Source: Nocardioides cavernaquae (GTDB lineage: Bacteria > Actinomycetota > Actinomycetes > Propionibacteriales > Nocardioidaceae). Taken from it: 64,000 nucleotides of DNA. Under the pieces are notes generated by a model. That model worked only from the letters and a program-made list of their open reading frames with translations. It was not told the origin of the DNA and searched no databases. The translations under genes and the position numbers were made by a program. Every line of letters begins with the position of its first letter. Position 1 is the first letter of the stretch. Positions 29,958 to 39,457 of the stretch are shown piece after piece. The stretch spans positions 1,612,001 through 1,676,000 of the forward strand of contig NZ_QYRP01000002.1 of assembly GCF_003600895.1 (NCBI RefSeq). The letters run 5' to 3'.

Positions 29958-31526
29958 TTGTCCACCCACCTCGCATCCAGCAGCGGAGAGGCGCTCAGCG
30001 CGACCGATCTCCACACCTTTGGCTACACCCAGCAGCTGGCCCGGCGTGTCGGCACCTACGCGTCGTTCGCGGCCGGCTTCTCGTTCGTCTCGATCCTGAC
30101 CACCGTCTTCCAGCTCTTCGGCCTCGGCTACAGCTTCGGTGGCACCGCGTTCTTCTGGACCTGGCCCGCCGTCTTCGCCGGACAGATCCTGGTCGCCCTC
30201 TGCTTCGCAGAGCTGGCGGCGCGCTATCCGCTCTCGGGCGCGATCTTCCAGTGGTCGCGCCGCCTCGGCGGATCCGTGGTCGGCTGGTTCGCCGGCTGGA
30301 CCATGATCGTCGCCCAGATCATCACCGTCGCGGCGGCCGCGATCGCTCTCCAGGTCGTGCTCCCCGCGGTCTGGTCCGGCTTCCAGGTCATCGGCACGGA
30401 CCCCTCGGTCTTCTCCCCGGACGGCGCGACCAACGCGGTCTTCCTCGGCTGCCTGTTGCTGATCGCCACGACGACGCTCAACGCCGTCTCGGTCCACATC
30501 ACCGCGGTCGTGAACTCCGTCGGGGTCACCTGTGAGCTGATCGGCATCGCGCTGCTCGTCGTACTCCTGTTCGGCAACGCCGAGCGCGGCCCGTCCGTGG
30601 TCCTCCACCACACCAACCTCGACGCCTCCACCGGCTACGTTGTCCCGCTGCTGATCTCGTCGCTCATGGCGGCCTACGTGCTGGTCGGCTTCGACTCCGC
30701 GGGCGAGCTCGCCGAGGAGACCCACAAGCCGCGCGCGACCACGCCTCGCACCATCCTGCGCGCCGTGGTTGCCTCCGGCATCGGTGGCGCGTTCCTGCTG
30801 CTCGCCGCGCTCATGGCGGCCCCCAGCCTGGCGCCTGACGACCTGGGCCTGGGCGGCCTGCCCTACGTCCTGACCAGCCAGCTCGGCACCTTCTGGGGCA
30901 AGGTCCTGCTCGTCGACGTCGCCCTGGCCGTGTGCGTCTGCACCCTCGCCATCCAGACCGCCGCCGCGCGGATGATCTTCTCGATGTCGCGCGACGACGT
31001 GCTGCCGTTCTCCTCGGCGCTGCGCAAGGTCTCACCCCGCACCGGCACCCCGGTGCTCGCCACGGTCGTGCCCGGCGTCGGCGCCGCGATCTGCCTGCTG
31101 GTCAACGTCAAGAACGCTGGTCTGTTCCTCGGCCTGTGCAGCGTCTGCATCATGCTCATGTACATCGCCTACCTCGCGGTCACCGGCTCCATGCTGGTGA
31201 GCCGCCTGCGCGGGACGCTGGAGACCGGCGGCGTCGACGAGAACGGCAAGCCGCTCTTCTCGATGGGCCCGAAGCTGGGCCTCGTCGTCAACGTGCTGGC
31301 CGTCGCCTACGGCGTCTTCATGGCGATCAACCTGGGCCTGCCGCGCGCTGACGTCTACGACCCGGCCGGCGAGGGCTGGTACCTCCACTACCTCCCGCTG
31401 GTCACCCTCGCCGTCACCTTCGGCGCGGGCGCCATCGCGTACGCCGTGAAGCGCGAGAGCTATCACGCATCGGTCCTGCCGGTGATCGCTGCCGAGCCCG
31501 TCCGGGCGTACGCCGAGGAGTCCTGA
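29958..31526 (+). CDS. APC-family permease, probable guanidine or amine importer
   Basis: Amino acid-polyamine-organocation transporter (522 aa, about 12 helices). Family sequence: ALCFAELAARYPLSGAIFQW (consensus AELA..YP.SGG.Y), VGFDSAGELAEETHKPRATTPR. The TTG at 29958 is chosen because GGAGG lies 7 bases upstream; the frame is open further but the upstream part overlaps the riboswitch platform. As first gene behind a guanidine riboswitch it most likely brings in guanidine or a related compound; substrate is inferred from context. Confidence 0.85.
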   Translation: MSTHLASSSGEALSATDLHTFGYTQQLARRVGTYASFAAGFSFVSILTTVFQLFGLGYSFGGTAFFWTWPAVFAGQILVALCFAELAARYPLSGAIFQWSRRLGGSVVGWFAGWTMIVAQIITVAAAAIALQVVLPAVWSGFQVIGTDPSVFSPDGATNAVFLGCLLLIATTTLNAVSVHITAVVNSVGVTCELIGIALLVVLLFGNAERGPSVVLHHTNLDASTGYVVPLLISSLMAAYVLVGFDSAGELAEETHKPRATTPRTILRAVVASGIGGAFLLLAALMAAPSLAPDDLGLGGLPYVLTSQLGTFWGKVLLVDVALAVCVCTLAIQTAAARMIFSMSRDDVLPFSSALRKVSPRTGTPVLATVVPGVGAAICLLVNVKNAGLFLGLCSVCIMLMYIAYLAVTGSMLVSRLRGTLETGGVDENGKPLFSMGPKLGLVVNVLAVAYGVFMAINLGLPRADVYDPAGEGWYLHYLPLVTLAVTFGAGAIAYAVKRESYHASVLPVIAAEPVRAYAEES

Positions 31527-32224
31527 TGAGCCTCTACGCCCACGAGATCCCGGGCGGAGCGGCCTGGTCGACCCCGGTGCGTGCCGGCCGGCTGGTCACG
31601 CTGACCGCGCTCGGCGACGACGCCAACTGCAGCACCCTGATCGTCGGTGCCGACCGGGTCGACCGGATGAACATCCCCGACACCCTGAAGGCGCAGATGT
31701 CGGCGCGGATCCTCCCGCCGATGGTGCTCATGTCCGACCGGGGCCTGGCGCTCGCCTCCGTCGTGGCATCCAGCCTGGACTGGCACGACTGTCTGGGCGG
31801 CTTCGGCCACGACGCCCACCTGGCCAGGTTCGGCCCGAGCAGCTACCAGGCCGACCGCAACGAGTGGCGGCGCTCGGCCCACACCGGCCTCGTCACCGAG
31901 CTCACCAAGCACGGCCTCGGCGAGCGCGACCTGCATGCCCCGGTCAACTTCTTCAGTCGGGTCTCGATCGGGGAGGACGGCTCGTCGCTCTCCTTCGCGC
32001 CCGGTCACTCCGTCGCAGGTGACACCGTCACGCTGCGCACGGAGCAGGACGTCCTGATCGTGGTGAGCACGGCTCCGCATCCGATGTCGGTTGCCGCCTA
32101 CGCCCCGGCCGGGGTACGGGTCACGGTCGACACCGCACCGGTGGTGGGTCCCGACGACGCGTCGTACGTGTTCCGGGCGGAGTCCGCGCGGGCGCTGGAG
32201 ATGACGCGGAGGGCCGTGGCATGA
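31526..32224 (+). CDS. DUF1989 urea carboxylase-associated protein, carboxyguanidine deiminase subunit type (first)
   Basis: DUF1989 protein (232 aa) of the urea-amidolyase-associated group. In Pseudomonas the paired proteins CgdA and CgdB were shown to deiminate carboxyguanidine to allophanate. Seen: WHDCLGGFGHDAHLARFGPSSYQ, HAPVNFFSRVSIGEDGS and SFAPGHSVAGDTVTLR. Start overlaps the permease stop by one base; the stop overlaps the next gene by ATGA. I cannot decide from sequence alone which of the two proteins corresponds to CgdA and which to CgdB. Confidence 0.88.
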   Translation: MSLYAHEIPGGAAWSTPVRAGRLVTLTALGDDANCSTLIVGADRVDRMNIPDTLKAQMSARILPPMVLMSDRGLALASVVASSLDWHDCLGGFGHDAHLARFGPSSYQADRNEWRRSAHTGLVTELTKHGLGERDLHAPVNFFSRVSIGEDGSSLSFAPGHSVAGDTVTLRTEQDVLIVVSTAPHPMSVAAYAPAGVRVTVDTAPVVGPDDASYVFRAESARALEMTRRAVA

Positions 32225-32883
32225 CCGCGGTGCACACGAGCCCGGCCGTCGCGGCCGGGCCGGCCGGCAACCCCGCGAACGGCCCCGTCCACGACGCCAC
32301 CATCGGGTCCGGGGACGGTGCCCTGGTGCGCGTCCCCGCGGGCGGGCGCCTCCGGATCGTCGACCTCTTCGGCAACCAGGCAGCCGACACGCTGCTCTAC
32401 GACGCGGACGACATCGACAACCGCTACTCGGCGTTCGACACCATCAGGGAACAGGGCGCGGTCTTCCTGACCACCGGCTCCCGCTTGCTCTCGACCCGCC
32501 TCGACGAGCTCGCCGTGATCACCGATGACACCGTCGGGCGCCACGACACGATCGGTGGCGCCTGCGCGCAGGAGAGCAACGTGATCCGCTACGGCGAGCA
32601 CGTGCGCCACCAGCACGCGTGCCGGCAGACGTTCCTGGCCTACGGCGCCGCCGCGGGCATCGGGCAGCGCGAGCTGGGCCACAACATCAACTTCTTCATG
32701 AACGTGCCGGTCACCTCTGCGGGTGGGCTGCAGTTCGACGACGGTCTCTCCGCACCGGGGAAGTACGTCGAGCTGACCGCCAGCCGCGACATCTGGGTGC
32801 TGCTCTCCAACTGCCCGCAGCTCAACAATCCCTGCAACGGCTGGGACCCGACGCCGCTGCAGCTGCTGGGGTGGTGGTCGTGA
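32221..32883 (+). CDS. DUF1989 urea carboxylase-associated protein, carboxyguanidine deiminase subunit type (second)
   Basis: Second DUF1989 protein (220 aa), partner of the one before it. It has the putative metal-binding cysteines of this subgroup: GACAQESN, HQHACRQTF and the late NCPQLNNPCNGWDPTPLQ. GHNINFFMNVPV corresponds to the NFFS region of the first protein. ATGA overlap upstream; its TGA shares a base with the ATG of the carboxyltransferase gene, leaving no room for another domain between them. Confidence 0.88.
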   Translation: MTAVHTSPAVAAGPAGNPANGPVHDATIGSGDGALVRVPAGGRLRIVDLFGNQAADTLLYDADDIDNRYSAFDTIREQGAVFLTTGSRLLSTRLDELAVITDDTVGRHDTIGGACAQESNVIRYGEHVRHQHACRQTFLAYGAAAGIGQRELGHNINFFMNVPVTSAGGLQFDDGLSAPGKYVELTASRDIWVLLSNCPQLNNPCNGWDPTPLQLLGWWS

Positions 32884-34931
32884 TGGCGGCCACCAAGGTG
32901 ACCGTGGTCGACGCCGGCGTCCAGACCACCGTGCAGGACATCGACGGACGCCGCGGCTACTGGGACGTCGGGGTGCCGCCGTCCGGGGCCTTCGACGAGT
33001 TCACCTTCGCGCTGGTGAACGCGGCAGTCGGCAACCCGGACACCGCCGGCGGACTCGAGTGCGTGGTCCGGGGACCGGTGCTCGCCTTCGACACCGACAC
33101 CCTCGTCTGCGTCGGTGGCGGGTTGACCGACGCGTCGGTGGACGGCTGGCCGCTGTCGCCGGGTGAGGTCCGTCGGGTGCGCGCCGGAGCGGTCCTCGAC
33201 GTCGGTCCCGTCGACGGCCCCGGCATGCGCGGGTACGTCGCGGTGCAGGGCGGCATCGACGTGCCCCGGGTCCTCGGCAGCCGTGCCACCTTCATCCTGG
33301 GCGGCTTCGGGGGCGTCGAGGGCCGCCCGGTGCTCGATGGTGACGTTCTTCCGCTCGGCCGCCGGGAGAACCTGGCGGCCCCGGTGGAGGTCGTCGACCT
33401 GCTCCCGGCGTTGGGCGGCGAGTGGGAGCTGCGCGTGATCGCGGGTCCCCACGGAGCCCCCGAGCACCTGACGGTCGAGGGCGTCCGGGAGCTCTTCGCC
33501 ACGAGCTGGCGGGTCGACCACCGGGCCGACCGGACGGGCGTGCGGCTGGTCGGGCCGATGCCCGGCTGGGCGCGCACCGACGGGGGCGAGGCCGGGCTGC
33601 ACCCGAGCAACGTGCACGACTCGGCCTATCCGGTCGGAGGGATCATGCTCTCGGGTGACACCCCCGTCATCGTCGGCAAGGACGGCCCGTCGCTGGGAGG
33701 GTTCGTGGTGCCGGCAGGCGTCATCGGCGCCGACCTGTGGAAGCTGGGCCAGCTCCGGCCGGGCGACACCGTGCAACTGGTCCCTGTCGCGCCGGACGAC
33801 GCAGAGGCCGCCATGCGCGAGCGGCGGGCCCTGCTCGATCTCGTGCGCGGACTGGGGGATCGCAAGCCCTGTGCGCAGATCACGCCCGTGCAGGGTGGGG
33901 CTGAGGGTCCGGCTGAGGGTCCGGCTGGGGATGGCCGCACAGCCCCGGAGCGCATCACCTGGGACCGGCCCGCGCAGCTGGCCGAGCGGCCCGCGGCGGG
34001 CCACCACCCGGCGTACTCGATCAGGCGGTCGGGGGACCGGCACCTGCTGCTCGAGGCCGGCCCGTCCTCGCTGGAGCTGACCGTGCGGGTCTGGATCCAC
34101 CTCCTCGCCGAGGCGCTGCGGGCCGACCGCCCGGACGGTGTCGCGGAGATCGTCGAGGGCGTCAGGTCCGTGCTCGTCAAGGTCGACGACGCCGTCCTGC
34201 GGCTGCCCGACCTGGCCCGGCACCTGGTCGGTCTCGCGGCCGACCTCGCCGACCCCGCGACCGTCGTCCTCGACGTGCGCGAGGTGACGATGCCGATGGC
34301 CTTCGACCATCCCGAGGCCCACGAGGCGATGCGGCGCTACCAGTCGGTGAACCCGACGGCGCCGTGGAACCCCGACAACGTCGAGTTCATCCGCCGGGTC
34401 AACGACCTGCCGCAGCGCGACGACGTGTTCGGCGTGGTCACCGAGGCCACCTATCTGGTGGTGGGGCTGGGCGACGTCTACCTGGGTGCACCGGTGGCCG
34501 TGCCGATCGACCCGCGCCACCGGCTGGTGACCACGAAGTACAACCCCGCGCGCACCTGGACTCCTCAGAACGCCGTCGGTATCGGCGGCATCTACCTGTG
34601 CATCTACGGGATGGAGGGTCCCGGCGGCTACCAGCTGGTCGGTCGGACCGTGCCGGTCTGGCGACTGATCGCGGAAGATCCGGGACGCGACCCGAAGCCC
34701 TGGCTCCTGCGCCAGTTCGACCGGATCCGGTTCGTTCCGGTGACCGCGGAGGAGCTTGCGTTGCAGCGCGCGGAGATCAAGGCCGGAGTCCGGGACCTCG
34801 ACATCCGGCCGGCGACGTTCTCGGTGGCCGAGGTGGCTGCGCTCGAGGAGGGCGCGGCCGACGAGATCGCGCTGGTCCGGGCTCATCGCCGGGCCGCGTT
34901 CGACGCGGAGCGACAGAGGTGGGTCTCATGA
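32883..34931 (+). CDS. Carboxyltransferase-only urea/guanidine carboxylase (AHS2-AHS1), lacking BC and BCCP domains
   Basis: 682 aa against about 1200 for urea and guanidine carboxylases. Residues 1 to about 320 are the AHS2/KipA half (VVDAGVQTTVQDIDGRRGYW, GVPPSGAFDEF). Residues about 378-590 are the AHS1/KipI half (YSIRRSGDRHLLLEAG, DVYLGAPVAVPIDPRHRLV, GIGGIYLCIYGMEGPGGYQL). The C-terminus ends at AAFDAERQRW, the point where full-length enzymes go on to the biotin carrier domain; no EAMKM-type biotin site is present and no biotin carboxylase domain precedes it. A low-complexity GPAEG repeat lies in the linker. Activity therefore needs BC-BCCP from elsewhere, or the reaction differs. Probable function: transfer of carboxyl to guanidine or urea. 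Confidence 0.85.
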   Translation: MAATKVTVVDAGVQTTVQDIDGRRGYWDVGVPPSGAFDEFTFALVNAAVGNPDTAGGLECVVRGPVLAFDTDTLVCVGGGLTDASVDGWPLSPGEVRRVRAGAVLDVGPVDGPGMRGYVAVQGGIDVPRVLGSRATFILGGFGGVEGRPVLDGDVLPLGRRENLAAPVEVVDLLPALGGEWELRVIAGPHGAPEHLTVEGVRELFATSWRVDHRADRTGVRLVGPMPGWARTDGGEAGLHPSNVHDSAYPVGGIMLSGDTPVIVGKDGPSLGGFVVPAGVIGADLWKLGQLRPGDTVQLVPVAPDDAEAAMRERRALLDLVRGLGDRKPCAQITPVQGGAEGPAEGPAGDGRTAPERITWDRPAQLAERPAAGHHPAYSIRRSGDRHLLLEAGPSSLELTVRVWIHLLAEALRADRPDGVAEIVEGVRSVLVKVDDAVLRLPDLARHLVGLAADLADPATVVLDVREVTMPMAFDHPEAHEAMRRYQSVNPTAPWNPDNVEFIRRVNDLPQRDDVFGVVTEATYLVVGLGDVYLGAPVAVPIDPRHRLVTTKYNPARTWTPQNAVGIGGIYLCIYGMEGPGGYQLVGRTVPVWRLIAEDPGRDPKPWLLRQFDRIRFVPVTAEELALQRAEIKAGVRDLDIRPATFSVAEVAALEEGAADEIALVRAHRRAAFDAERQRWVS

Positions 34932-36544
34932 GTGACCAGCCGACGTTCATCCACCGGCTCTCGGATGCCGAGGTGGCCGCCTTCGAAGCCGCCGCCCCGG
35001 ATGGTCCCCTGTCCGGAGTCACCTTCGCGATCAAGGACAACATCGACCTGGTCGGGGTGCCGACCACAGCGGCCGACCCGCGGCGTACGACGCCGGCGGC
35101 CGCGTCCGCGACCGCCGTCCAGCGGCTGCTCGACGCCGGCGCTGTGCCCGTGGGCAAGACCAACATGGACCAGTACGCCACCGGCCTGGTCGGCACGCGC
35201 TCGCCGTACGGCGCCTGCCACTCGGTCTTCTCCCCGGAACACGTCAGTGGCGGATCGAGCTCCGGGAGCGCAGTGGCAGTGGCCTCCGGCGATGCCGAGG
35301 TGGCGCTGGCCACCGACACCGCAGGGAGTGGTCGGGTGCCCGCTGCATTCAACGGGCTCGTCGGGCTCAAGCCGAGCAAGGGGCTGGTCCCGACGACCGG
35401 CACCGTCCCGGCGTGCGCATCGCTGGACTGCGTCACCGTCATGACGCGCACCGTGGCCCGGGCCCGGGAGGTGTTCACCGTGATCGCGGGACCCGACGCG
35501 GCGGATCCCTGGTCGCGCGCCGTGCCGCAGCGCCCGACCCCGGCGCGACCGGTGATCGCGGTGCCCGTGGGGGACCTCGATCTCGACCCGCCGCACCAGG
35601 TGGCCTGGGAGGCCTCGGTCGCCCGCGCCCGGTCGCAGTGGGACGTGGTCGAGCTGGACATCGCGGCGTTCCTCGACGCGGCCACGCTGCTCTACAGCGG
35701 CCCCTGGGTCGCCGAGCGGCGGCTCGCGTTCGGGGAGGCGCTCACCGATGATCCGGAAGTTGACCCCGCCGTGCGCGAGATCGTGGCGGGTGCTCCGGAC
35801 CTGTCGGCAACGGACGTCTTCGCGGCCTTCCACCGGCTCGCGGCGCTCGATGCCTCATCACGCCAGGCCTGGCAGGTGGCCGATGCCCTGCTGCTGCCCG
35901 TCACGCCGACCCACCCCACGTTGGCCGACGTCGTTGCGGATCCGATCGGGGTCAACACCCGGCTCGGACGCTTCACCAACATGACGAACCTGCTCGACCT
36001 GTGCGCAGTCGCCTTCCCCGGCCCTGTGCGCGGCGACGGGCTGCCGTTCGGGGCCCAGCTGCTGGCTCCCGCGGGAGGGGACCTTGCGCTGCTGGACCTC
36101 GCCGCGGCGTGGGGTGGGGAGCAGGTCGACGAAGCCGCGGCCGAGGATCGCGTGGAGCTGGTCGTCGCTGGTGCGCACCTGGCCGGCGAACCACTCAACG
36201 CGGACCTCGTCGCGCGTGGTGGGGTCTTCGTCCGGGCCGCGCGGATGGCCCCCGACTACCGCATGTACGTCGTCGACGGCCCACTCCCGCGGCCCGGGGT
36301 GACCCGGCTCCCCGCCGCTCAGGCGGGAGCCCCGAGTGCGCTGGAGGTCGAGGTCTGGTCGCTGCCGGCGGCAGCGCTGTCCGGGTTCCAGGCGACGATC
36401 GCGCCGCCGCTCGGCCTGGGGCAGGTGGACCTGGATGACGGCACACGCCTGCTCGGCTTCCTCTGCAGTGCCGACGGGGTCGACGCCGTCCGCGACATCA
36501 CGACGTACGGCGGGTGGAGGGCGTGGCGCGCTTCCGTCCGGTGA
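34928..36544 (+). CDS. atzF: Allophanate hydrolase
   Basis: Amidase-signature enzyme (538 aa) that splits allophanate to ammonium and CO2, the last step of urea-carboxylase or guanidine-carboxylase pathways. Catalytic Lys in AIKDNIDLVG (about residue 36), cis-Ser in GGSSSGSAVAVASG (about 110) and nucleophile Ser in DTAGSGRVPAA (about 134). The last about 130 residues form the separate C-terminal domain seen in AtzF (MYVVDGPLPRPGVTRLP). ATGA overlap with the carboxyltransferase gene; end of the operon. Confidence 0.93.
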   Translation: MSDQPTFIHRLSDAEVAAFEAAAPDGPLSGVTFAIKDNIDLVGVPTTAADPRRTTPAAASATAVQRLLDAGAVPVGKTNMDQYATGLVGTRSPYGACHSVFSPEHVSGGSSSGSAVAVASGDAEVALATDTAGSGRVPAAFNGLVGLKPSKGLVPTTGTVPACASLDCVTVMTRTVARAREVFTVIAGPDAADPWSRAVPQRPTPARPVIAVPVGDLDLDPPHQVAWEASVARARSQWDVVELDIAAFLDAATLLYSGPWVAERRLAFGEALTDDPEVDPAVREIVAGAPDLSATDVFAAFHRLAALDASSRQAWQVADALLLPVTPTHPTLADVVADPIGVNTRLGRFTNMTNLLDLCAVAFPGPVRGDGLPFGAQLLAPAGGDLALLDLAAAWGGEQVDEAAAEDRVELVVAGAHLAGEPLNADLVARGGVFVRAARMAPDYRMYVVDGPLPRPGVTRLPAAQAGAPSALEVEVWSLPAAALSGFQATIAPPLGLGQVDLDDGTRLLGFLCSADGVDAVRDITTYGGWRAWRASVR

Positions 36545-37156: not shown

Positions 37157-39457
37157 CTAGCGGGACGGATGAGGTCCGTCGGGCGATGGCCGCGTGCCGT
37201 GCGCGTGCCACGCCACGATCTGTCCGCGCGAGCGCAGGCCGAGCTTGACCAGGATGTTCTGCACATGGCCCTCGGCGGTGCGGAGCGAGATGACCAGACG
37301 CGTCGCGATGTCCTTGTTGGTGAGGCCGGCGGCGACCAGCGCTGCGACTTCGGCCTCACGCCGCGTCAGCGGCGAGGGCGCATCGGGATCGCGGGCCGGC
37401 GCGGCGCTGTCGGTGTCGAGGGCGAAGTCCTGGGCCTCATCGAGCGACAGGGCGCGCCCAGCGGCGTACTCGCTCTCGAACTGCGCCGGGTCGAGGGCGT
37501 CCCGCGTCGCGGCCAGGTGTCGGTCGTGGGGCCCAGCCACCGTGGCGAAGTTCTGAGGCGAACCGCCGATCGACTCGTAGAGCGAGTCGGCTGCCCCGAA
37601 GAGCCGAGCGGCCCGTGGGAAGCGCCCCTGGCGTTCAGCGATCCAGGCCAGGGTGTCCACGCCGAGAGCGATCGCGAGCCGGTTGTCGAGGCGCCGCTGG
37701 ATCTCCAGTGACTGCTTCGCGGTCTCGTCGGCCCGCTCCAGTCCGTCGCGGGCGACCTCGATCTGCGCGACTGACCAGAGGGCGTAGGCGCGCCAGAACT
37801 CCTCTCCGCGACTGGTGGCCGCGGTGATGCACTCATCGAGCACGGCGAGGCCTTCATCGGCATCACCGGGTCGGCCCCGGAGGCCGATCGACATCCCGAG
37901 GATGAACAGCGTGAAGAACTCGCCGCGCACGTCGCGGATGGCGCGGAACTCCCCAAGGGCCTGCGACATCAGGGTCGATGCCTGGTCCAGGTCTCCGGTG
38001 AAGCACGCCGCCATGCCCCAGGCATGGGTGACGTACGCCGAGGCCCGGCGGCTGCCGGTGGCAGCAGCTGTCTCGCCGGCCTCGACGATTGCAGGCAGAC
38101 CCTGCTCGGGATCGCCCTGGAGCAGGGCGTACCAGCCGCTCATGCGCAGCGCCTCGGCCCGCTCGGCGGACGGGCTCGTGTCGATGGCGAGAGCCTGGGC
38201 GAGCCATCGACGCATCTCGGTGTGCAGGCCGCGCATCCCCCAGTAGTCGTCGAGACACGTGGCGATGCGGAATCCTGCGGCGACCTCGTCCGGGCTGCTC
38301 AGGCAGTAGTCGAGCGCGACCCGCAGGTTGGCGTGCTCGCGGTGGAGCCGGGCGACGAGGGCGACCTGGTCGGGGCCCTCCCAGGTGTCCCGGCAGGTCT
38401 GGGCGAGCTGGGCCAGCCAGTCGCGGTGGCGACGTGCAGTGGCGCGGGCGTCTTGCTGGTCGAGCCGCTCGGCACCGTACTCGCGGAGCGTTTCGAGCAT
38501 GCGGTAGCGCATCGAGCCGCCGAGCTCGTCGGCGATCAGGATCGACTTGTCGGTGAGGGAGTCGATCAGGTCGAGGACGTCCTCCTCCTCGATCCCGTCG
38601 CCTGCACACACGTGTTCGGCCGCCTCCAGGTCGAATCCGCCGGAGAAGACCGATGCCCGCGCCCAGAGCAGCTGCTCCTCGGGAGAACAGAGGTCGTGAC
38701 TCCAGTCGACCAGTGCCCGCAGCGTCTGCTGGCGCTGCGGGGCATCCCGGTTGCCCTGGGTGAGCAGCCGGTAGCGGGCATCGAGCCGCTGCTCGATCTG
38801 GGCGGGGGAGAGGACCCGGATCCGGGCGGCGGCGAGCTCGATCGCGAGCGGCAGGCCTTCGAGTCGTTTGCAGATCCGGGCGATCGGGCCCGCGTTCTCG
38901 TCGTTGAGGGCGAAGGAGGGCTTCGCCGCCGTGCCCCGTTCGGAGAAGAGGTCGGAGGCCTCGTGGACGTCCATCGGCGGGACCTGCATGGACACCTCTC
39001 CTGCGACGCGGAGCGACTGCCTGCTGGTGGCCAGGACCTGGACCTGGGGACAGGCGCGGGTCACCCGTTCGACGAAACGACCGCACTCCTCGACCAGGTG
39101 CTCGCAGTTGTCGAGGACCAGCAGCAGCTGTCGGTCGGCCAGGTGGGCGATGACCAGCTCGAGCGGATCGCGTCCGGACTGGTCGCGCAGCTGCAACCGC
39201 TCGGCCACCGTGAGCTCGAGCAACGCAGGGTCGCGCAGGTCGGCGAGGAGCACCACGCAGACTCCGTCGTGGTAGGCCCGCCGGACCTCGGTCGACAGGC
39301 GCAGGGCCAGCCGGGTCTTGCCGGCGCCACCGGTGCCGACCAGCGTGAGCACCCGGGTCGTGCCGAGCAGCCGGCGCGCTTCGGCGAGCTCGTGTCGGCG
39401 GCCCACGAAACTCGTTGGGGTCGCCGCGGGCAGATCAATGACCTCGATCGTGGACAT
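37157..39457 (-). CDS. LAL-type transcriptional regulator: AAA/NB-ARC ATPase with LuxR HTH
   Basis: Large ATP-binding regulator (766 aa). Walker A VGTGGAGKTRLAL (about 40-52), Walker B LLLVLDNCEH (about 110-119), followed by NB-ARC-like RLEGLPLAIELAAARI. The middle 350 residues are helical repeats of TPR type. C-terminal LuxR/GerE helix-turn-helix: LTRREAEVAALVAAGLTNKD, then RTAEGHVQNILVKLG (about 695-750). Target genes unknown; the two small genes on the opposite strand and the palindromic site at 36587 are the nearest candidates. Upstream on its strand TAGTGT lies 9 bases before the ATG, with a CCCGGGCGCCCGGG palindrome (39475-39488) behind it. Confidence 0.88.
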   Translation of the reverse strand: MSTIEVIDLPAATPTSFVGRRHELAEARRLLGTTRVLTLVGTGGAGKTRLALRLSTEVRRAYHDGVCVVLLADLRDPALLELTVAERLQLRDQSGRDPLELVIAHLADRQLLLVLDNCEHLVEECGRFVERVTRACPQVQVLATSRQSLRVAGEVSMQVPPMDVHEASDLFSERGTAAKPSFALNDENAGPIARICKRLEGLPLAIELAAARIRVLSPAQIEQRLDARYRLLTQGNRDAPQRQQTLRALVDWSHDLCSPEEQLLWARASVFSGGFDLEAAEHVCAGDGIEEEDVLDLIDSLTDKSILIADELGGSMRYRMLETLREYGAERLDQQDARATARRHRDWLAQLAQTCRDTWEGPDQVALVARLHREHANLRVALDYCLSSPDEVAAGFRIATCLDDYWGMRGLHTEMRRWLAQALAIDTSPSAERAEALRMSGWYALLQGDPEQGLPAIVEAGETAAATGSRRASAYVTHAWGMAACFTGDLDQASTLMSQALGEFRAIRDVRGEFFTLFILGMSIGLRGRPGDADEGLAVLDECITAATSRGEEFWRAYALWSVAQIEVARDGLERADETAKQSLEIQRRLDNRLAIALGVDTLAWIAERQGRFPRAARLFGAADSLYESIGGSPQNFATVAGPHDRHLAATRDALDPAQFESEYAAGRALSLDEAQDFALDTDSAAPARDPDAPSPLTRREAEVAALVAAGLTNKDIATRLVISLRTAEGHVQNILVKLGLRSRGQIVAWHAHGTRPSPDGPHPSR

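Follow-up and report, generated by a model that had tools for sequence, protein, structure and literature searches.

The putative guanidine operon of Nocardioides cavernaquae that lies in the window (the whole stretch of 64,000 nucleotides analysed here) contains a carboxylase gene consisting of the carboxyltransferase (CT) part alone. The product of this gene is probably the CT subunit of a heteromeric biotin-dependent guanidine carboxylase, which would obtain its biotin carboxylase (BC) and biotin carrier (BCCP) functions from an alpha subunit common to the acyl-CoA carboxylases, AccA3 being the likeliest. We infer that guanidine is the substrate, that AccA3 is the partner and that the two proteins come into physical contact and are active.

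Fused guanidine carboxylases, CgdAB and allophanate hydrolase were already known, and urea and guanidine carboxylases have been described as single chains. The literature searched, with subscription papers mostly outside its scope, described neither a guanidine carboxylase made of CT alone nor any such enzyme served by AccA3, and the only such forms in section 8 of the 2011 biotin carboxylase survey are fused urea carboxylases and homologues encoded by two adjacent genes (PMC3199775). The CT-only form, arising at least twice in actinobacteria, points to a shared alpha subunit that would couple fatty-acid carboxylases to nitrogen assimilation, and it makes testable by what means a single biotin carrier works with CTs that differ in fold. 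The Asp/Asn rule for guanidine and urea carboxylases gains a third state (Met), and full-length models such as TIGR02712, with a cut-off of 1304 bits, overlook CT-only genes.

Architecture of the CT gene and its operon

The CT-only guanidine/urea-type carboxylase gene lies at 32883..34931 (+) and encodes a protein of 682 aa in which only the Pfam domains CT_A_B (29-300) and CT_C_D (379-599) were found. TIGR02712 (urea_carbox) matched this protein over profile positions 446-1107 of 1201 (761.7 bits, cut-off 1303.85) such that the gene lacks both BC (profile 1-445) and BCCP (1108-1201), bearing out the claim of the earlier note that only the carboxyltransferase part is present; BC and BCCP on one chain, as required of a guanidine carboxylase, are therefore absent. 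Against the PxpC equivalog NF045499 the window CT scored 150 bits, well short of the cut-off of 500, a value likewise not attained by any match in 60 searched genomes of the phylum.

The DUF1989 gene upstream ends in TGA 32881-32883, the A of which is also the first letter of the CT start codon (ATG 32883-32885), while the CT stop codon (TGA 34929-34931) overlaps the allophanate hydrolase start codon (ATG 34928-34930), leaving no space for BC or BCCP at the window locus. Fused actinobacterial operons have approximately 1.3 kb of BC DNA here, separating the DUF1989 gene from the CT part. The overlap with the deiminase gene had been taken to mean that nothing was cut by a frameshift, a view that holds, a sequencing or frameshift artefact being very unlikely given that nine other genomes of the window clade (see below) have the identical architecture. 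In two of the clade genomes (G098 and G232) the CT is split across two contigs. Comparison of the window CT with five orthologues gave pairwise dN/dS values of 0.18-0.32, indicating purifying selection, and 153 columns are invariant among 39 CTs (18 CT-only and 21 from fused genes).

Upstream of the operon a Guanidine-I riboswitch aptamer (RF00442; 29763..29885, +) was detected by cmscan at 62.6 bits (E 1.2e-10; gathering score 63), followed by an APC-type permease of the urea/guanidine carboxylase system (29958..31526, +) with an uncertain start codon, TTG 29958 being proposed by eye, for which TIGR03428 gave 653 bits over 30003-31526 (cut-off 740). Next are two DUF1989 proteins (PF09347), one a CgdA/B-like carboxyguanidine deiminase subunit of UAAP1 type (31526..32224, +; TIGR03425 203.6 bits, cut-off 205.95), the other a second carboxyguanidine deiminase subunit of UAAP2 type (32221..32883, +; TIGR03424 278.2 bits, cut-off 284.7). 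On columns defined as conserved from 22 reference loci, the clade retains 17 of 24 in the UAAP1-type protein and 59 of 61 in the UAAP2-type protein. The CT gene is followed by an allophanate hydrolase with amidase and C-terminal domains (34928..36544, +; TIGR02713 596 bits, cut-off 511; PF01425 and PF21986). The DUF1989 pair, allophanate hydrolase and guanidine riboswitch that identify a guanidine carboxylase operon are thus all present, the riboswitch falling just below its gathering score. Convergent to the operon is a gene for a large regulator-like protein whose C-terminal end is of LuxR type (window 37157-39457, -).

Guanidine-I was above gathering in all eight other clade loci searched (L027, L028, L182-L185, L232 and L233), and so stands upstream in 9/9 clade loci when the window, just under gathering, is included, the search having covered the clade apart from G232. 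There was none at gathering in the five Mycobacteriales CT-only loci searched, nor in the seven fused actinobacterial loci and L090 that were searched. As such the clade with the changed specificity residue (see below) has the clearest guanidine control.

The window CT shares 46-51% identity with the 21 aligned CTs from fused genes and resembles the fused guanidine carboxylase of the GC-CgdAB-AtzF pathway in its operon partners, its guanidine riboswitch and the Asp at K. lactis 1584. Unlike the fused enzyme (BC-CT-BCCP) it has neither BC nor BCCP, has Met for Asp at 1330 and has a new invariant Asp212. Urea carboxylases (K. lactis 3VA7/5I8I; fused L131-L133) differ from it in having Asn at 1330 with fused BC and BCCP, and DUF1989 genes were absent from the four fused Asn-type loci, three of these having only 1.5 kb flanks.

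Substrate-specificity residues

A guanidine carboxylase is recognised by Asp at both K. lactis 1584 and 1330 (PMC11410670), with Asp marking guanidine and Asn marking urea carboxylases according to a further study (PMC12186494). In the window CT Asp531 corresponds to K. lactis Asp1584 and is Asp in 96/96 rows, while at 1330 there is Met255, the residue of neither guanidine nor urea carboxylases, a change that the earlier note missed. The published guanidine carboxylase signature is therefore half present in the window clade. Position 255 is Met in 9/9 clade members examined, G098 being left out of this count, compared with Asp in 63/67 and Asn in 4/67 rows of the fused group; in the Mycobacteriales CT-only rows it is Asp (20/20), and in L090 it is Asn. 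The fused rows include L099, which has CT and BCCP only and is counted as fused both here and in the 106-column comparison (see below), and six rows whose BC or BCCP is truncated at a contig end or by the frame (L031, L034, L038, L064, L078 and L103). Asp212 is invariant in 8/8 full-length clade rows and is also present in L090, the fused group having His in 63/67 rows; it is a guess that Asp212 might take over the lost charge of position 255.

DUF1989 genes accompany 47 of the 62 fused Asp rows, nine of the other 15 being loci under 7 kb, and were undetected in six longer fused Asp loci (L034, L037, L038, L043, L084 and L086). They accompany all 28 CT-only rows, including Asn-type L090, as against 0/4 fused Asn rows (three loci with only 1.5 kb flanks). 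A further residue of the CT, 266 in the GxDGPS loop (window 33678-33680), is Lys in 6/6 Nocardioidaceae CT-only rows and Pro in most others; in L232 and L233 it is not Lys.

Biotin carboxylase genes

The assembly of the N. cavernaquae genome (3.47 Mb, two contigs, 99.6% complete) contains no match above the TIGR02712 cut-off, hence no full-length urea/guanidine carboxylase was detected anywhere in it. Biotin_carb_C has five matches in the genome, each in a frame of acyl-CoA carboxylase type, and the free BC-BCCP protein of the urea carboxylase clade for which the earlier note had suggested a search was not found. The two observations that the note held would speak against it, a full-length copy elsewhere in the genome and a full-length gene in close relatives, did not appear, none being found in the nearest relatives.

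Three of the alpha subunits (L006, L009 and L010) each directly adjoin an AccD-type CT gene (Pfam Carboxyl_trans). The AccA3 of the genome (L008 6933-8807, -) has an AccD-type gene approximately 4 kb away, carries the EAMKM biotin motif and is matched at 812 bits by the AccA3 of PDB entry 9YX5 and at 777 bits by 5MLK, which is M. tuberculosis AccA3 (PMC5407890). An AccA3-type BC-BCCP, as an AccA3-fed heteromeric carboxylase would need, is thus encoded, its BC domain being 81-96% identical in six sister genomes. The genome also has a 1891-residue frame (L007 3100-8772, -) that combines BC, carrier and carboxyltransferase-like parts and looks like an acyl-CoA carboxylase on a single chain, and a PxpB-PxpC-like pair (L231 from about 5045; G000:C2 near 2685000).

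A tree of BC domains placed the 26 from fused urea/guanidine carboxylases in one clade (100/99), with none of the free BCs of N. cavernaquae or the six sister CT-only Nocardioidaceae genomes inside it; the tree was built without one match as long as a pyruvate carboxylase from each of G187 and G199. AccA3 is present in all seven Nocardioidaceae genomes treed (L008, L162, L165, L169, L171, L174 and L178), as is the 'b'-type alpha subunit (L009 and six others); G185 yielded neither the multidomain nor the 'c' type, and G071 likewise gave no match of the multidomain type. Across the window clade AccA3 was found in nine of the ten genomes, the tenth being G225 (78% complete), in which none was detected and a stand-alone BC (L241) was the only BC found, such that the donor may vary. 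Beyond the Nocardioidaceae, G291, G232 and also G368 have AccA3-type genes, and the Acidimicrobiia MAG has one broken AccA3-like BC gene. Among all free BCs treed from the window clade genomes, none grouped with those of the fused urea/guanidine carboxylases. BC matches were taken at E up to 1e-60 in one of these searches and up to 1e-40 in that covering G225, and Mycobacteriales BC matches were assessed by score except for one BC each from seven genomes. Stand-alone BCs without a carrier domain in G225 and G368 (L255 1612-2952; L256 2606-3940) form a separate branch in the BC tree.

Proposed mechanism and alternatives

In the proposed mechanism guanidine would switch on the operon through the Guanidine-I riboswitch and would be taken up through the APC permease. 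A BC-BCCP protein from another locus, most likely AccA3 as the alpha subunit common to acyl-CoA carboxylases (here L008), would use ATP and bicarbonate to carboxylate its own biotin, and the carboxybiotin would swing into the CT, which would pass the carboxyl to guanidine. The resulting carboxyguanidine would be converted to allophanate by the DUF1989 pair with allophanate hydrolase releasing the remaining nitrogen.

Of 106 columns that hardly vary among fused enzymes and are missing from PxpBC, the window CT retains 85 (the Mycobacteriales CT-only genes retain 100), and it should therefore still accept carboxyl from carboxybiotin. AccA3 is the best candidate for the donor because in M. tuberculosis it forms functional complexes with AccD4, AccD5 and AccD6 (PMC5407890) and because of the 9YX5 complex. 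By its entry title and chain names, 9YX5 (released 2025-11-26) is MSMEG_0435-MSMEG_0436 on the M. smegmatis long chain acyl-CoA carboxylase complex, the entry containing the AccA3 sequence and two chains of the CT_A_B/CT_C_D fold family. The MSMEG_0435-MSMEG_0436 and PxpBC pairs (3MML, 9YX5) share these two folds with the window CT, the former pair being bound to the AccA3 complex, but they are two chains, are 20-34% identical to it in structural alignments and, in the case of PxpBC, are without the urea/guanidine-specific columns. Counting against AccA3, the known binding domain of the alpha subunit serves AccD-type CTs, which have a different fold, and the co-occurrence of AccA3 says little since it is a housekeeping gene. 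Set against the AccA3-guanidine proposal as a whole are Met in place of Asp, together with the scores of the permease and both DUF1989 proteins slightly or clearly below curated cut-offs. AccA3 as the sole candidate is weakened by the ubiquity of the 'b' type in the Nocardioidaceae genomes treed and by G225 with its stand-alone BC only.

These last two observations would suit pairing of the CT with a BC-BCCP other than AccA3, such as the 'b'-type alpha subunit (L009), with a stand-alone BC and a separate carrier taking this role in some genomes. Such a donor is unlikely, though with an appreciable chance, given that the sole structural precedent involves AccA3 and that L006, L009 and L010 each have their own AccD-type CT gene as a direct neighbour while the AccD-type gene near AccA3 is approximately 4 kb off. 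The earlier note had offered two explanations, a BC-BCCP supplied by another protein such as an acyl-CoA carboxylase alpha subunit, and a CT working without biotin. The former is the better of the two, all BCs found in the genome being of that kind, and it fits with 9YX5. The latter gained no positive evidence and is very unlikely, even though the operon and its surroundings encode no dedicated BC-BCCP and the related PxpBC pair has long been described without biotin: direct activation of bicarbonate or substrate with ATP sits poorly with the retained diagnostic columns, and a PxpBC-type pair itself sits on the AccA3 complex.

The substrate could instead be a guanidine-related compound, with Met for Asp and the new invariant Asp212 reflecting changed recognition under an unchanged guanidine riboswitch. 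The uniformity of Met in the clade members examined, set against Asp or Asn throughout the fused group, and the long stem branch of the clade would be in keeping with this, but the riboswitch together with the partner genes (permease, DUF1989 pair, allophanate hydrolase) is the guanidine-operon set and a Guanidine-I riboswitch tested in Vreelandella was specific for guanidine over methylguanidine (PMC12508155), making a changed substrate improbable. That the CT gene is a decaying or inactive remnant, as the missing biotin domains and altered specificity residue might suggest, is scarcely credible with an intact overlapping operon, a retained riboswitch, the low dN/dS values and identical architecture in ten genomes of four family groups. 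A heteromeric guanidine carboxylase fed by AccA3 remains the preferred reading.

Distribution and evolutionary origin

The window clade comprises ten genomes in four family groups: N. cavernaquae, G185, G187, G071, G098, the genomes of L027 and L028, G291, G225 and G232. G098 was placed in it by identity (72-75%), the clade tree being built without this genome. Comparison with related genomes, as the earlier note had advised, showed the nine others to be CT-only as well. In the own family group, 14 of 198 genomes had a match at E <= 1e-60, five of them CT-only (one over two contigs) and nine fused, while across the class 49 of 394 genomes had a match at E <= 1e-120, with a CT-only frame in 15 (12 in group f5, together with N. 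cavernaquae, G291 and G225). In G232 and G368 the genes are truncated by contig ends, the interval between DUF1989 and CT being without BC, and G539 and G240 have a fused copy besides the CT-only frame.

A scan of genome contigs found 23 CT-only genes among the best 80 loci, namely two from Nocardioides, 20 from Mycobacteriales and one from an Acidimicrobiia MAG, so that the CT-only form of this family was restricted to Actinomycetota among those loci. The 'new split' of the earlier note is thus upheld by comparison as a split but not as a one-off. Like the window gene, those of the Mycobacteriales (Rhodococcus, Nocardia, Mycolicibacterium and Jongsikchunia; L032, L047, L057 and others) have CT alone with a DUF1989 pair upstream and no BC within the flanks examined; unlike it, they arose separately from within the fused actinobacterial clade and have Asp at 1330 and, in the five loci searched, no Guanidine-I at gathering. 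Three Rhodococcus/Prescottella genomes have a fused Asn urea-type gene (L131, L132 and L133) and a separate CT-only Asp guanidine-type gene (L096, L048 and L032), so the split there affects the guanidine paralogue only. Also among the best 80 loci is a second copy in Nitrosomonas europaea (L099 336-2627, -) with CT and BCCP but no BC found, which has its own DUF1989 pair and permease upstream and adjoins a full-length fused gene on the opposite strand.

The tree of 91 CTs requires two changes between CT-only and fused forms. A single origin of the window clade and the Mycobacteriales CT-only genes was rejected (p-AU 8.4e-6, in tests run without L234 and L235), hence the CT-only form has two or more origins. 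The Mycobacteriales clade lies within the fused enzymes, a position for which loss is the best reading. When the CT tree was rooted with PxpBC, the window clade and L090 fell outside the clade of all fused enzymes (99/99), as the window clade did in two further trees, the window clade having a long stem branch, and by this topology it may be a pre-fusion lineage that was never fused. The PxpBC outgroup is very distant, so that the rooted tree carries a long-branch warning, and a tree uniting all actinobacterial rows was not rejected (p 0.254, in the AU tests without L234 and L235). The claim that the window gene 'has lost' its biotin domains therefore stands as regards their absence, with loss itself not proven for this lineage. 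More tentatively, and on balance doubtfully, AccA3 might be a general plug-in carboxybiotin donor for two unrelated CT folds that drives guanidine nitrogen assimilation, with the Met-type CT a surviving pre-fusion branch that is older than the single-chain enzyme and has its own guanidine recognition. In one of the PxpBC-rooted trees L232 and L233 are without the 'split' label. A CT cut by a contig end in G368 (L234 3712-5124) has Met at the specificity site, is not preceded by a BC and branches outside the window clade.
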